23,660 bases of DNA. Origin: a virus. The DNA is taken from positions 1 through 23,660 of IMG/VR virus record IMGVR_UViG_3300046167_000376. One strand, written 5' to 3'. Below, piece after piece: positions 16,373 to 23,660 of this stretch; position 1 is the stretch's first letter; the number at the start of each line of letters is the position of its first letter. The position numbers were made by a program, and so were the translations under genes. The notes under the pieces are model-generated. The model was not told the origin of the DNA, did not search any database, and saw nothing but the letters and a program-made list of their open reading frames with translations.

Positions 16373-16412
16373 ACGAAAAAGCTTGCGTAACGAAATAACT
16401 TGCGTATCTTTG
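16373..16412 (+). promoter_or_regulatory. Promoter with tandem 17-base motif before the 16417 cassette
   Basis: ACGAAAAAGCTTGCGTA (16373-16389) is repeated at once as ACGAAATAACTTGCGTA (16390-16406), 15 of 17 bases the same. The TTG of the first copy (16383-16385), 19 bases and TATCTTTG (16405-16412) form a Bacteroidota -33/-7 promoter. Only 4 bases separate it from the ATG at 16417. A third copy of the motif lies at 3741-3757 in the promoter of the other cassette. Confidence 0.75.
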
Positions 16413-18422: not shown

Positions 18423-18753
18423 GGGAGTTATTAAGCGCGTTTGTAAACCGATGGAATTCGAAAGCGGCTTTCGTAAATGCGAAGTACACGTTGAGGTGCA
18501 GGATGGCAAATATCCGCAGACCTTGGCGCTGGAGTTTCTCAAAGACGACGTTGACGAAGCCGTTGCATTGCCTGAGGGCAAGACTATTAAAGCACGGTGC
18601 AACGTACGCGGCAGCGAATGGCAAAAGGACGACACGCAGCCAATGCGCGTATTTATGAGCCTAGTGCCGTGGAAGTATGAAATCGTAGAAGCTGGAGCGC
18701 AGCCAGCACCAACCCAACAACCTTCACAAGATGGCGGAAATTTCCCTTTCTGA
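18406..18753 (+). CDS. DUF3127-like OB-fold single-stranded DNA-binding protein
   Basis: From ATG 18406 the product is 115 residues. It starts MELIIEGVIKRV, continues with a five-strand OB-like pattern (RKCEVHVEV, YPQTLALEFL, KTIKARCNVRGSEW, MRVFMSLVPWKYEIV), then a Pro/Gln linker and a C-terminal DGGNFPF tip like that of bacterial SSB proteins. The N-terminus and strand pattern fit DUF3127, a family found mainly in Bacteroidota and their phages, where it is thought to replace SSB. The tip would recruit replication and repair partners. An upstream ATG frame from 18349 exists but lies within the previous gene. Confidence 0.8.
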   Translation: MELIIEGVIKRVCKPMEFESGFRKCEVHVEVQDGKYPQTLALEFLKDDVDEAVALPEGKTIKARCNVRGSEWQKDDTQPMRVFMSLVPWKYEIVEAGAQPAPTQQPSQDGGNFPF

Positions 18754-18916
18754 GGTACGTTATACCGTTAGGCTACCAAAGCTAAATACGCGCGTAACGT
18801 TTGAGAACTACAGCAGCTTTGAAAGGTACGTTGATGACCTGCGAACAAAACAAATAAGCCATGAAATCCGAATTGAATACAATGAAACTGAAAGCCTTTA
18901 TAAACAAGCACTTTGA
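18731..18916 (+). CDS. Small unknown early protein (61 residues)
   Basis: The product (EVRYTVRLPKLNTRVTFENYSSFERYVDDLR then EIRIEYNETESLY) alternates strands and helix like a small alpha/beta protein. It overlaps the ssDNA-binding gene by 23 bases and the HTH gene by 56 bases, or by 35 bases if the latter starts at 18882. The overlaps match local style, but no family is recognised and it could be a chance frame. Confidence 0.5.
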   Translation: MAEISLSEVRYTVRLPKLNTRVTFENYSSFERYVDDLRTKQISHEIRIEYNETESLYKQAL

Positions 18917-19106
18917 AGGGTTAGACCATTGCGCCGAGGCTTTGGGCGTATCCCGTCGCACAGTCGAAAATTACATATACAGCAACCCCACCGGGATACT
19001 TAAACACAGCACCCAACTAATGCAGCTTGACGGCGTTGACCCGTTCGAACTGTTTGACGTGGTAGCTGAGAACGTAGAGCAAATCAACCAAAAACAAAAA
19101 GCATGA
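18861..19106 (+). CDS. Helix-turn-helix DNA-binding protein (Cro-like size)
   Basis: The 81-residue protein (74 residues if it starts at ATG 18882) has a recognisable HTH: DHCAEALGVSRRTVENYIYSNP at about residues 22-43, with ALGVSRRTVENYI as the turn and recognition helix. A hydrophobic C-terminal half follows. It is the only visible DNA-binding regulator in the genome. By inference it could bind the 17-base promoter motif at 3741 and 16373. No opposing repressor gene or integrase exists, so a lysogeny switch is unlikely. The stop overlaps the next ATG (19103). Confidence 0.75.
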   Translation: MKSELNTMKLKAFINKHFEGLDHCAEALGVSRRTVENYIYSNPTGILKHSTQLMQLDGVDPFELFDVVAENVEQINQKQKA

Positions 19107-19489
19107 TTCAATTTCATAACGGTTGGGAGCATGATTTAAAAGTCGGTCAAGACGGTGAAAGCGAATTCAGCAACTTGTTACGGAAGGGCCGACCGTTTTA
19201 CACCGTTGAATGTAAACGGGATATGCAAGTGCATGAAACAGGTAATTTATTCATCGAAGTCGAGAGCCGAGGAAGTGCCAGCGGGATAGAACACACGCAG
19301 GCGGATTATTGGGCATTTATGACGCACGATAAAAAAGTTAGTATTGTCGTAGACCGTAATACGTTGCAAAAGGTGCTGGAAGCTCACACAGGCGACAAAG
19401 TGAAAGGCGGCGACGACATGACAAGTCTAGGTTATTTGATACAAGCTAAGCAGCTAATTCGCTCAATACTGCACTACGTTGAAGCGTAA
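19103..19489 (+). CDS. PD-(D/E)XK-type nuclease
   Basis: The 128-residue product contains QDGESEFSNLL, then YTVECKRD and GNLFIEVESRG, followed by SGIEHTQADYWAF. The E-C-K and E-V-E strands with an earlier acidic residue are the hallmark of a small PD-(D/E)XK nuclease fold, and the HTQADYW pattern recurs in related phage and resolvase-like enzymes. Its place just before the replication initiator suggests a role in phage DNA processing or host DNA attack. Exact substrate is unknown. Its end overlaps the initiator start (TTG 19479) by 11 bases. Confidence 0.7.
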   Translation: MIQFHNGWEHDLKVGQDGESEFSNLLRKGRPFYTVECKRDMQVHETGNLFIEVESRGSASGIEHTQADYWAFMTHDKKVSIVVDRNTLQKVLEAHTGDKVKGGDDMTSLGYLIQAKQLIRSILHYVEA

Positions 19490-20222
19490 AGGCATATACA
19501 TCCCGCTGGAGTTGTGGAATCTTGGCGAGCTGCACCCAAACGAAAGGGTGTTGCTTGCTGAGGTTGCCAGCTTTGAGGACAAAAACAAACCATGCTTTGC
19601 AGGAAACGAACACTTTGCCCAACTGCTCAACGTATCAACGGCTACGGCGCGGGGCTATATTTCCAAGCTTGTAAACGCTGGTTTTCTAGTCCGAGAGGGT
19701 GACAGATACAACAGACGACTGCGTAGAATAGCGCAAACGAGTGCGCAGAATAGCGCAGACGAGTGCGTAGATTCACGCAGACGAGTGCGTAAATCCGCGC
19801 AAACGAGTGCGCAGAATTCAGCACATACTATAACAACTACTATATTAACTACTAATACATCTACTAATAGTGCAAAAGTGTTGAATGTTGTTTTACCGTT
19901 TCAATCGGAAAAATTTGAAGCCGCATGGAACGAATGGAAAGACTACAAACACACAGACCACCGATTTAGATACAAATCGCCCAAAAGCGAACAACGGGCA
20001 CTAATCAAACTACAAAATGAACACACCAACGAAAACGACGCCATCAACGCAATTCATACAGCAATTGCAAACGGATGGAAAGGCTTGGTATTTAACTCAC
20101 CCAAAGGCGGGAGAGCTAACAAGCGGCGAGCGGATAACCTTGAAAGAGATGTCAACCGCGAAAAGCTTGCAGAATTTGCAAGAACTGGACGTATCACGCC
20201 TGACGGTGGAAACGTGCTTTAA
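19479..20222 (+). CDS. Replication initiator protein with embedded origin
   Basis: It begins at TTG 19479; no ATG fits better. The 247-residue protein has an N-terminal winged helix (GIYIPLELWNLG, ERVLLAEVASF, CFAGNEHFAQLLNVSTATARGYISKLVNAGFLVR; residues about 5-72) as in phage replication proteins. A middle Arg/Gln/Ser/Thr-rich part (80-135) is low-complexity. The C-terminal domain (FEAAWNEWKDYK, YKSPKSEQRALIKL, AINAIHTAIANGWKGLVF) is common in Bacteroidota phage initiators. The low-complexity part is encoded by four 22-base DNA repeats plus an AT-rich tract, read in different frames, so it is an origin and not a protein repeat. This is the lambda O layout. It overlaps the next ORF by up to 206 bases. 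Confidence 0.82.
   Translation: MKRKGIYIPLELWNLGELHPNERVLLAEVASFEDKNKPCFAGNEHFAQLLNVSTATARGYISKLVNAGFLVREGDRYNRRLRRIAQTSAQNSADECVDSRRRVRKSAQTSAQNSAHTITTTILTTNTSTNSAKVLNVVLPFQSEKFEAAWNEWKDYKHTDHRFRYKSPKSEQRALIKLQNEHTNENDAINAIHTAIANGWKGLVFNSPKGGRANKRRADNLERDVNREKLAEFARTGRITPDGGNVL
19710..19819 (+). repeat. Iterons: four 22-base direct repeats plus one degenerate copy (replication origin)
   Basis: Units start at 19732, 19754, 19776 and 19798, each 22 bases, sharing the core CGCARACGAGTGCGYA with an internal CGCA/TGCG inverted repeat. A degenerate copy precedes at 19710-19731. The repeat length is not a multiple of three, so the units fall in all three reading frames of the initiator. Units 1 and 4 give AQTSAQNS, while units 2 and 3 give other peptides. 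Conservation is therefore at DNA level. 22 bases is about two helical turns, suiting initiator molecules bound on one face. Confidence 0.9.
19820..19880 (+). other. AT-rich tract next to the iterons (likely DNA unwinding element)
   Basis: Directly after the last iteron the sequence becomes AT-rich and contains three CTACTA elements at an exact 12-base period (19837, 19849, 19861). Iterons followed by AT-rich repeats is the arrangement of lambda ori and many plasmid origins. A 12-base period also equals 4 codons (Thr/Asn-rich peptide), so protein-level repetition cannot be excluded here. Confidence 0.65.
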
Positions 20223-20724
20223 AGGCACGAACGTGCGCACGGCATTGGTATGCGACGAAGCACCAACACGGGCCGCGCTAATCGGTATGCTAGGCCGCTG
20301 CGTCAAGTTTATCGACGCAAACAAGACACTAACAGAACCCGAACACATTGCAATGACGGTGAACGAGCTTGTCCAGCAATTTCCAACGTTTACCCTTGAA
20401 GATTGGCGCCTGTGCCTGTACATGATGGCCAAAGAGAGCTTTGGACCGTACTACGAACGCCTAAAGTTGGCGCAGTTTGTCGATTGCTTCACCAAGTACG
20501 ACCAACTGAAGCAGCCAGTGATTCAGACGATACGCGAGAACGAACGCAAAGAGGCCGAGCGGATGCAGCAGGAAGCCATGAGGCATTTACAGCCCGAATA
20601 CGTCACTCAAATTAACCCAGTGGCATCAAGGGTACACCCAGCCGACTGGATGGCAGGAGAGGACCGCTTAACGTACACAGAGCGCGAGGAGATGCAGAAA
20701 CGACAGAAGCAAAACAGTAAATGA
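20017..20724 (+). CDS. Replication-associated protein, possibly a helicase loader equivalent
   Basis: The open frame begins at ATG 20017, 206 bases inside the initiator gene. A later ATG (20149, MSTAKSLQNLQEL) is a more modest start, still overlapping by 74 bases. The product is up to 235 residues, helical, with LTEPEHIAMTVNELVQQFPTFTLEDWRLCLYMMAKESFGPYYERLKLAQFVDCFTKYDQLK. That pattern recurs in proteins encoded after initiators in Bacteroidota phages. No Walker motif is present. By position it is comparable to lambda P, but this is inference. The C-terminus is charged and probably disordered. The stop overlaps the next ATG. Confidence 0.6.
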   Translation: MNTPTKTTPSTQFIQQLQTDGKAWYLTHPKAGELTSGERITLKEMSTAKSLQNLQELDVSRLTVETCFKGTNVRTALVCDEAPTRAALIGMLGRCVKFIDANKTLTEPEHIAMTVNELVQQFPTFTLEDWRLCLYMMAKESFGPYYERLKLAQFVDCFTKYDQLKQPVIQTIRENERKEAERMQQEAMRHLQPEYVTQINPVASRVHPADWMAGEDRLTYTEREEMQKRQKQNSK

Positions 20725-22042: not shown

Positions 22043-22366
22043 ATGAACGATGCGCAATTTCAAAGGTTCACGGAACGCGTGGCCGAGTACAGCACACGCA
22101 GCGAGCTTACCAGCGGCGTAAAGTCTTTAATTCAAACGCTTTCATGCGTAGAAATTGAGGAAGAAATGCTGCAGGCGTTTTGCAATGAGCAAGGCACGTG
22201 CTACCAAGTCACAGGCAAAAGCGGCGACGTTTACAGCCGCGCCCGTCCTGAATGGCAACAACTCAAAGAGGCACGAATGAGAAAGCAGGCCATGATTGCC
22301 ACGCTGGAGAGGTTAGTAGGTACAACGGCAGAAACAGAAGAAAGCGTTGACGAATTCTTTGGATGA
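22043..22366 (+). CDS. terS: Terminase small subunit
   Basis: The 107-residue product lies directly before the large terminase and after HNH, the normal place. Its C-terminal half (NEQGTCYQVTGKSGDVYSRARPEWQQLKEARMRKQAMIATL) matches the pattern of P27-like small terminases, in which a T-x-K-x-G-D segment is followed by RPE and a helix. The N-terminal part is helical and short. Small terminases bind the packaging site and regulate the motor. Its end contains the proposed terL start. Confidence 0.75.
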   Translation: MNDAQFQRFTERVAEYSTRSELTSGVKSLIQTLSCVEIEEEMLQAFCNEQGTCYQVTGKSGDVYSRARPEWQQLKEARMRKQAMIATLERLVGTTAETEESVDEFFG

Positions 22367-23660
22367 ATTCCACTTTGACGAAGACGCGGCAAATCGTGCC
22401 GTTGACTTTATCGAGAAGTTTTGCAGTCATGTAAAAGGCGAGCTTGGCGGTAAGCCGTTTCTGCTTGAAGATTGGCAAAAAAACGACATAATTCGCCCAC
22501 TATTCGGTTGGAAAAAGGCCGACGGACGGCGAAAATATCGCACTTGCTACGTTGAAATTCCGCGTAAAAATGGCAAGTCAAACCTTTCTGCAGCCATTGC
22601 GCTCTATATGCTTTTTGCAGACGGTGAACCGGGTGCGGAAGTGATAAGCGCAGCAGGCGACCGAAACCAGGCCAATATCGTGTTCAGCATAGCGCAGGAG
22701 ATGATACACAACAACAAACACCTGAGCCAACGCGCCAAGGTTTTGCGCAACTCAATCAACTACAAAAGCAGCTTTTACAAGTCCATCAGCGCCGAGGCAA
22801 GCACAAAACACGGCTTTAACTGCCATGCCGTAATTTTCGACGAACTACACACGCAGCCCAACCGCGATTTGTGGGATGTACTCGTAACGTCCACAGGCGC
22901 ACGAACGCAGCCGCTTGTTATCGCACTAACTACAGCAGGACATGATAGGAATTCAATATGTTTTGAGATTCATGAGTACGCTCGGCAAGTTCAGGAGGGC
23001 AGTATTCTCGATGAGACTTTTTTACCAGTACTTTATGCCGCTGATGAAAGTGATGATTGGACAGCTGAAGAAACATGGGCAAAAGCCAACCCGGGTTATG
23101 GGTCGATTTGCACTAAAGCGTATTTTGAGCAAGAAAGCAAGAAAGCGCAGAATGTCCCGTCGTACCTAAACACGTTTTTGCGTCTAAATCTCAATATTTG
23201 GACAAGTGCCGAGCACGCGTGGATACCTGACGACGTTTTTATGCAAGGCGCGGAGCCAATCCCGTGGGAGCGTTTGCCGCTTTTACCCGCCTTTGGTGGC
23301 TTAGATTTAGCCAGCACGCAGGATTTAACCGCTTTTGCACTGCTATTTCGTGACGATGAAAACGACTGTTTTTATCTTATCGTTCACCAATTTGTAAACC
23401 AAGACAAGGCCGACAGCAAGAAATTAAGCGCAGGAATTGACTACCACAGGTACGCAAAAGACGGGCATTTGACTATTACACCGGGCAACGTCACAGATTT
23501 TCGATATGTAAAACAGCATATTGTAGACGCGTGCGCTAAATACGACATTCGCGGCATAGGATACGACCCACGATTTAGCACGTACATAGTGAGCGAATTG
23601 ATACAAGACGACATAGAAATGCACCCAATGGCGCAGAATATTACGACTATGAACGGCCCC
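22347..23660 (+). CDS. terL: Terminase large subunit (packaging ATPase/nuclease), runs off the window end
   Basis: The frame opens at 22320 without any ATG. TTG 22347 (or 22359) is the proposed start, just before the conserved FDEDAANRAVDFIEKF N-terminus. The 438 residues present include an adenine-binding FLLEDWQ (38-44), a Walker A-like IPRKNGKS (71-78), Walker B VIFDELH (Asp165, Glu166), coupling LTTAG (195-199), and nuclease-domain acids Asp320 in GGLDLA and Asp407 in GYDPR. The C-terminus lies at bases 1-249. An ATG at 22363 overlaps the terS stop, the usual arrangement, but is out of frame; one extra T in the TTT at 22374-22376 would connect it (MNSTFDEDAA). Confidence 0.93.
   Translation, partial: MTNSLDEFHFDEDAANRAVDFIEKFCSHVKGELGGKPFLLEDWQKNDIIRPLFGWKKADGRRKYRTCYVEIPRKNGKSNLSAAIALYMLFADGEPGAEVISAAGDRNQANIVFSIAQEMIHNNKHLSQRAKVLRNSINYKSSFYKSISAEASTKHGFNCHAVIFDELHTQPNRDLWDVLVTSTGARTQPLVIALTTAGHDRNSICFEIHEYARQVQEGSILDETFLPVLYAADESDDWTAEETWAKANPGYGSICTKAYFEQESKKAQNVPSYLNTFLRLNLNIWTSAEHAWIPDDVFMQGAEPIPWERLPLLPAFGGLDLASTQDLTAFALLFRDDENDCFYLIVHQFVNQDKADSKKLSAGIDYHRYAKDGHLTITPGNVTDFRYVKQHIVDACAKYDIRGIGYDPRFSTYIVSELIQDDIEMHPMAQNITTMNGP

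Follow-up and report, generated by a model that had tools for sequence, protein, structure and literature searches.

The 23,660-nucleotide stretch of viral DNA analysed here (the window) very probably carries a phage replication origin at 19716-19868, inside the gene for the replication initiator and of the lambda O/ori type, as judged by sequence comparison. The design is of a kind known already from lambda O, SPP1 gene 38, pSK41 rep and pPR9 rep. What is new is this member, the limits that synonymous sites set on it, the joint exchange of its winged helix-turn-helix (wHTH) domain and iterons among relatives, and evidence of wide occurrence in HTH_36/O-like initiators. The gene and the domains of its product are placed as follows.

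19479..20222, + strand: O-like replication initiator gene (247 aa, TTG start; Pfam and PHROG matches)
19506..19718, + strand: winged helix-turn-helix DNA-binding domain (~residues 10-80; AlphaFold2 model, fold comparison)
19905..20072, + strand: C-terminal helical domain, putative helicase- or loader-binding part (~residues 143-198; AlphaFold2 model)

The earlier note on this DNA had called the gene a replication initiator, and profile searches agree. Its product matches PF13730 HTH_36 (E 1e-6, 28.9 bits, above the gathering cut-off of 25) and the PHROG replication initiation families 270 (E 1e-12), 678 (O-like, E 6e-12), 2880, 19658, 428, 391 and 345. Phage_rep_O (PF04492) is absent among the Pfam matches listed at E<=1, as is the RepA_N domain (PF06970), and the likeness to RepA_N is that of the general wHTH fold. 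The AlphaFold2 model (mean pLDDT 61, pTM 0.32) contains a wHTH domain to about residue 80 and a helical C-terminal domain at about residues 143-198. When the wHTH domain was compared with VIA-align, Z scores of 8-10 were obtained for wHTH proteins such as LexA and MarR-type repressors, and 8.0 for the RepA_N-type initiator 4pt7; we discarded these matches as a sign of a specific relative, since the list shows the general wHTH fold only. Foldseek with the same model returned no match at E<=0.001. Residues 82-134 have pLDDT below 50 and are predicted to form a disordered linker, coded by 19722-19880, which is nearly the same stretch as the iterons and the AT-rich block described below. The iterons thus lie where they had been placed at the outset, between the N- and C-terminal domains, with the wHTH before them, the helical domain after them and a predicted disordered linker between.

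A pattern search of the whole window located five 22-bp units at 19710-19819, within the initiator ORF.

19710..19731, + strand: iteron unit 1, with 3 mismatches against the pattern and a degenerate 5' half
19732..19753, + strand: iteron unit 2, 0 mismatches
19754..19775, + strand: iteron unit 3, 0 mismatches
19776..19797, + strand: iteron unit 4, 1 mismatch
19798..19819, + strand: iteron unit 5, 0 mismatches

These are the 22-base repeats, one of them degenerate, that had been reported in this ORF, and the degenerate one is the first (19710). A repeat finder gave four direct copies at 19712-19817 with spacings of 22, 22 and 22, and Tandem Repeats Finder (TRF) gave an array at 19715-19817 with a period of 22, 4.7 copies, 82% matches and a score of 127, the highest in the window. 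The runner-up, which scored 54, is a 17-bp repeat with two copies at 88% match at 16373-16406. When the iteron pattern CGCARACGAGTGCGYARAWT was searched with at most 3 mismatches on both strands of the 23,660 bases, the five sites (19710, 19732, 19754, 19776 and 19798) were the only ones found; shuffled sequences contained a mean of 0.04 sites, and five were reached in 0 of 100 shuffles. The period-22 self-match of the initiator gene is 0.85, compared with a maximum of 0.56 among 300 codon shuffles of the same gene. Neither TRF nor the pattern search detected a second iteron-like array elsewhere in the window.

Successive units start at frame offsets 0, 1, 2, 0 and 1 of a single ORF and are translated as NRRLRRI, QTSAQNS, ADECVDS, RRRVRKS and QTSAQNS, bearing out the proposal that one DNA repeat codes for different peptides in successive units. 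The description of the array as read in all three frames holds in the sense of rotating frames of one ORF. It does not hold for the other two frames of the block, which have stops, indicating that no overlapping proteins are encoded there.

Directly after the iterons lies an AT-rich block, which was missing from the earlier description of the locus.

19824..19868, + strand: AT-rich block with ACTAA/TAATACA-type repeats, putative DNA unwinding element (TRF, AT content, constraint)

TRF detects a period of 12 at 19826-19866, and the block is the most AT-rich 48 nt of the initiator gene. The same holds for the best 48-nt window just past the repeats in 20 of 26 representative genes, which were picked mostly for their repeats, and third-position AT is raised past the repeats in 24 of the 26 (p 7e-8). 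Across 29 representatives, TAATACA occurs at 8.6 per kb in the 100 nt past the repeats and at 0.11 per kb elsewhere, the former in 14 genes and the latter in two. In 25 related genes with GC >=50%, which are not independent, Asn-Thr is written as AATACA in 45 of 65 cases in the AT block and in 0 of 17 outside it. AATACA stands in one reading frame in 29 of 30 cases, so a peptide reason is possible for part of the AT motif; ACTAA stands in two frames (25 and 5 cases). A DnaA-trio-like reading of the block was dropped, as by inspection two of the iteron types described below (A' and C') lack such a motif.

Synonymous sites provide a measure of selection on the DNA itself. For this analysis, 31 genes with the window's type of iteron (type I: 9 of group A, 9 of A' and 13 of B) were codon-aligned. 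Comparison of group A with group B yields dS values of 1.10 for the wHTH, 0.19 for the iterons, 0.07 for the AT block and 0.57 for the C-terminus, and the corresponding dN values are 0.15, 0.14, 0.33 and 0.38. The same order of dS is observed in the five other group comparisons. The high amino-acid change and near absence of synonymous change in the AT block speak against a mere lack of divergence. In a per-codon profile, which counts columns with a conserved residue, synonymous difference is absent from 8 of 66 columns in the wHTH, 27 of 34 in the iterons, 12 of 14 in the AT block and 40 of 109 in the C-terminus. The iterons and the AT block each differ from the wHTH (Mann-Whitney p 5e-10 and p 1e-6, respectively), and the iterons differ from the C-terminus (p 2e-5).

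19716..19868, + strand: DNA-constrained segment, putative minimal origin (synonymous difference zero in 39 of 48 codon columns)

The limits of this segment, at about 19716 and 19868, are set by a drop in the profile after 19713, where synonymous difference is 0.83, and a climb at 19869, where it is 0.56. Within the segment, nine of the 48 codon columns do vary synonymously, four of them above 0.5. Low stretches are also found in the C-terminal half of the gene, mainly near the overlap with the next gene; the mostly low stretch at about 20130-20220 is largely that overlap in another frame, as expected. The combination of suppressed synonymous change and ongoing amino-acid change in 19716-19866 indicates that selection acts on the DNA, so that the dS comparison and the per-codon profile uphold what had been argued from the rotating frames. 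The earlier coordinates of 19710-19819 describe the iterons correctly and fall short for the constrained element, which reaches about 19868.

Homologs of the initiator were collected by three profile scans of IMG/VR, which gave 28, 52 and 26 loci. From these, 84 open frames including the window's were entered, of which 65 are distinct; L023, which is broken, and loci duplicating other entries were left out. We define the close family as the 53 distinct genes of at least 225 aa that have the wHTH, excluding the distant L098-L100. In all 53 of these full-length genes, the window's included, the best period is 22 (p<=0.01), which answers the question of whether relatives keep the initiator and lose the repeat: the 22-bp array is kept throughout. 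Five loci that have only the C-terminal domain in common with the window (L024-L028) give 0 of 5 at p<=0.01, the best being L024 with p 0.017 at a period of 18, suggesting that the array goes with the wHTH half. These five have another N-terminus and a linker rich in Lys/Glu or Lys/Asp.

The close family splits into wHTH types, each with its own iteron. Type I, to which the window and groups A' and B belong, has TGCGY-N6-RCGCA. Type E (L071) has GGCTC-N6-GAGCC-like iterons in four of five units, and type F (L075 and L077) has GCTC-N6-GAGC, in five of five units in L075; in both types E and F, both arms of the iteron have changed. Type D (L058) has GGGTGGTANAAAC, with perfect symmetry in the last unit only. 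Type C (L017 and others) has GGGTGGGCGCAAACGGAC with a period of 22, and types C and C' are without a clear dyad.

The boundaries between these types can be followed by aligning individual loci with the window, which was done for L017, L018, L020, L022, L011 and L055. Across 19501-19920, which covers the wHTH, the iterons and the AT block, L017, L018 and L020 are 37-65% identical to the window per 60-nt bin, and they have another wHTH and other iterons (GGGTGGGCGCAAACGGAC) than the window. From 19981 onward identity per bin is 87-100%, edge bins excepted, extending to about 20820 in L018 and L020 and to the end of the fetched piece in L017. Upstream, in bins 18661-19080, L017 and L020 are again 65-87% identical to the window, indicating that the exchanged segment includes the gene before the initiator. 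In L022, another type C locus, identity is 73-97% between 19921 and about 20700, and L011 and L055, which have type-I iterons, display no identity step against the window. The C-terminal domain is 88-92% identical in the loci with a swapped N-terminal half. Thus, the wHTH and the iterons appear to have been swapped jointly, next to a C-terminal domain that hardly changed; as the iterons adjoin the wHTH, this joint exchange could partly be linkage. At about 3001-3980 of L023, a foreign ORF is joined in frame to the first ~35 codons of a second initiator. An intact type-A N-terminal half comes directly after this fusion, and the locus ends inside the gene. This fusion looks like a scar of cassette exchange.

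Possible dyads in the window's type-I iterons are placed as follows.

19720..19801, no strand assigned: four possible dyads TGCGY-N6-RCGCA, 22 bp apart (starts 19720, 19742, 19764 and 19786)

In another register, TGCG-N8-CGCA is found at 19720-19735, 19742-19757, 19764-19779 and 19786-19801, with a broken fifth at 19808-19823. TGCGY-N6-RCGCA accounts for 123 16-mers in 32 type-I genes, and among the 14 distinct 16-mers the Y and R arms do not covary significantly (Fisher p 0.58). Taken alone, the symmetry of the window's own unit is within chance (p 0.65 against shuffles). When consensus units of 28 representatives, lambda included, were compared with their own shuffles, 10 were more dyad-symmetric at p<=0.05, and 18 had no significant dyad, among them the window (0.65) and lambda O (0.07); the combined value over the 28 units is 4e-9 by Fisher's method, the genes not being independent. 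For A-tract dyads, 11 of 37 genes lie above a null of codon shuffles (p<=0.05), and the window is not one of them (p 0.36). These mixed results suggest that the dyad is a property of part of the class. Our confidence in the origin is unchanged by them, as it never rested on the dyad.

From these computed features we infer a mechanism in which the initiator wHTH, perhaps as a dimer, would bind each of the four to five iterons. The 22-bp spacing corresponds to about two helical turns and would place the iterons on one face of the DNA. A wrapped initiator-DNA complex may then melt the adjacent AT-rich block with its ACTAA/TAATACA-type repeats, and the C-terminal domain, together with the product of the next gene (20149-20724), might bring in the replicative helicase. 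Because the iterons are coded in a predicted disordered linker, where the peptide would hardly matter, the DNA is free to be selected as DNA.

The genes around the initiator form a replication module. Upstream is a single-stranded DNA-binding protein (SSB; DUF3127/PHROG 4932), and downstream are a NinG-like nuclease and an HNH nuclease. The gene that follows the initiator is

20149..20724, + strand: downstream gene in the position of lambda P, a possible helicase loader by position only (loci of relatives)

and at 20149-20222 it shares its DNA with the end of the initiator gene, read in a different frame; synonymous change is mostly low there. Its only match is to PHROG 35728, a family of unknown function; profile searches recognised no helicase-loader family in it, a comparison with 50,697 phage records gave no match at E<=0.01, and its structure model is poor (pLDDT 57). 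In relatives' loci we find 53 distinct sequences of this gene besides the window's own, as counted by the last 120 residues, at least six of them truncated. At the window's left end is a portal gene, and at its right end the large terminase gene (22365-23660; PHROG 9, E 7.5e-131) runs off the sequence, so that the contig was probably cut from a genome that is circular or permuted. An ORF at 17344-18150 matches C-5 cytosine methylase profiles, chiefly in their N-terminal part (Pfam match residues 55-133 of 268), and may be divergent or incomplete. The DUF3127-type SSB family is typical of Bacteroidota. It is the one feature that speaks for the earlier assignment to a Bacteroidota phage, which is tentative: two profile scans of cellular genome contigs, with the initiator alignment and with the next-gene alignment, found no relative.

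The closest comparison is with lambda. There, O dimers bind inverted-repeat iterons within gene O, an AT-rich tract beside them is opened by the O nucleoprotein complex, and P is suggested to bind the C-terminal part of O (PMC5043065, PMC7466680, PMC6022878). The layout proposed for the window at the outset was that of lambda O and ori-lambda, and it is indeed alike: iterons lie within the initiator gene between DNA-binding and C-terminal domains, an AT-rich tract lies directly downstream of them, and a second replication gene, putative in the window, comes next. The two differ in spacing (about 20-24 bp, as 20/24/23, in lambda versus a strict 22 bp in the window), in iteron sequence, in Pfam family (Phage_rep_O, PF04492, versus HTH_36) and in the next gene, which is the P helicase loader in lambda and matches only a PHROG family of unknown function in the window. 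The window's phage had also been called unrelated to lambda. The Pfam families do differ, but lambda O matches PHROG 678 (1.7e-35), 391 and 345, and the window protein matches the same three, suggesting that the two are remote relatives by profile and that "unrelated" was overstated.

Other systems share parts of this layout. In the staphylococcal plasmid pSK41, of the RepA_N group, the origin is central in rep and the origin-coded linker peptide can be deleted, and in the chimeric rep of pPR9 a putative pfam13730 HTH replaces the RepA_N domain and the origin region; a pPR9 mini-replicon replicated (PMC5703833). Together with pSK41, pPR9 is the closest experimental precedent for the HTH_36 domain family. 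Unlike the window, both are Firmicutes plasmids with a C-terminal domain of the pSK41 type, pPR9 being likened by description only, and pSK41 has a RepA_N domain, which the window initiator does not. The gene 38 initiator of SPP1 binds direct repeats in its own gene, at oriL, beside an AT-rich unwinding element (PMC6316719). SPP1 has a second origin, oriR, elsewhere, whereas the window, which is perhaps incomplete, has no second array. P1 RepL belongs to an initiator family different from the window's. At P1 repL/oriL, replication is blocked when an AT-rich region within the initiator gene is altered synonymously, and the word "iteron" is absent from that paper (PMC9948254).

Three other accounts of the repeats must be weighed. 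The protein could be a regulator that represses its own gene or a downstream operon through the repeats, which would then be an operator array, with the origin elsewhere. The wHTH fold resembles that of LexA, MarR and other repressors, and the early region that holds the repeats is probably transcribed. Against this, the best profile matches are replication initiators, an AT-rich constrained block stands directly beside the repeats, and the window has no second such array; a promoter scan also found no site near the repeats, though it used the sigma-70 consensus only and says little for Bacteroidota-type promoters. We regard an operator array in place of an origin as unlikely; autorepression could occur alongside origin function. 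Packaging and partition sites occur in or near phage genes, and the block might likewise be some other cis-acting site, such as a pac or partition site, read by the initiator protein or by terminase. That is very unlikely, given that the block travels with the initiator's DNA-binding domain, combines iteron periodicity with an AT-rich element, and belongs to a replication module, where an SSB precedes it and a NinG-like nuclease follows.

A tandem repeat with no role as DNA, arising by slippage or kept as a linker peptide repeat, would suit a region that codes for a low-complexity, predicted disordered linker, and the AT motif does keep one frame. Such a repeat is nonetheless hard to reconcile with 22-bp units in rotating frames that code for different peptides, with suppressed synonymous change in the block, with different iterons of the same period accompanying different wHTH domains, and with the rarity of such repeats in neighbouring ORFs of the surveyed loci (1 of 56); we consider it highly improbable. 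An intragenic origin of the lambda O type is the reading that we carry forward.

Intragenic repeats are also found well beyond the close family. A fourth IMG/VR scan, with a diverse alignment, gave at least 80 loci, with 401 candidates confirmed, and the repeat survey took 48 mostly weaker-matching loci from it (L144-L191), or 47 genes after one short gene was dropped. An intragenic repeat with a period of 16-29 is present at p<=0.01 in 40 of these 47 initiators, many of which are alike, and in 38 of 45 distant genes after removal of the close relatives L147 and L151; among the matches listed, all significant genes have a period of 21-23. As a control, 56 ORFs that neighbour these initiators were put to the repeat test, and one passes. 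That ORF is L176 563-1250, with a period of 21. For clustering, 112 genes were entered, after ten of the 65 distinct genes had been set aside for truncation or a different N-terminus, and the 106 with anchor and length fell into 32 wHTH clusters (75% identity). As read from a motif finder, 25 of the 32 clusters, lambda included, have two or more consecutive spacings of 19-24 bp, a count that has no null behind it. In all of these 25 except L174 and L178 (both 21 bp), the units are mutually out of frame.

A codon-shuffle test was applied to nine phage records besides lambda, taken from 21 that matched, with the fetched record L110 left out. Three of the nine, Cruim01, Skulduggery and LspM-01, exceed all 300 shuffles, and the Bacteroides phage record gave no repeat in either version tested. 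Lambda O is marginal in the fixed-period test, being reached by 19 of 300 shuffles, because of its irregular spacing (20, 24, 23); the motif finder recovers all four of its iterons. Among five further HTH genes, from one Staphylococcus phage and four plasmids, those of phage SAP3 and a L. crispatus plasmid pass, and three of the four plasmid genes fail, including that of the one Bacteroidota plasmid. The SAP3 initiator (L193 741-1454) has near-identical repeats 24 bp apart and in frame, followed by AATAATACAAGTATTAATAATACAAG, and its unit has the lowest dyad p-value among the units tested. In Pseudomonas-type phage initiators (L106, L104, L102 and many of L149-L190), the genes of which are GC-rich, CCCCTTCGGAAAACnCG-like repeats occur within the gene at spacings of 20-23 bp, with AGTAATACA-type blocks after them.

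Our literature search, which took in few subscription journals, found no publication that surveys HTH_36 phage initiators for intragenic iterons. A 2006 review by Weigel and Seitz reportedly deals with phage replication modules. Phage TLS is reported to lack such repeats both in gp58 and in the rest of its genome (PMC11447400), indicating that the intragenic design is not universal among phages, and in a genomic island a gene is preceded by a putative oriV that has repeats (PMC2647930). Taken on sequence grounds, the survey is evidence that the putative intragenic origin design is common among HTH_36/O-like phage initiators. A broader proposition, which we find plausible and yet do not quite favour, is that the two-part intragenic origin is a built-in, inherited trait of the whole HTH_36/O-like class. 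Each wHTH, the iterons that belong to it (22-23 bp for the most part, some having an A-rich centre flanked by inverted arms) and an unwinding block of the TAATACA/ACTAA type downstream would then make up a single transferable cassette for specificity, which in the phages and plasmids of several bacterial groups is combined with different C-terminal domains that recruit the helicase. If this were true, the position of the origin and the pairing of initiator with iteron would be readable from sequence alone.

An uncultivated phage group thus gains a delimited putative origin of about 150 bp with a testable recognition code. The natural pairs of DNA-binding domain and iteron that appear to have been exchanged together offer a starting point for decoding the specificity of initiators and for compatible replicons, and suppressed synonymous change may serve as a general way to find origins hidden in genes. 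The design known from lambda, which is among the oldest origin designs known, is suggested to extend over a large set of phage initiators.
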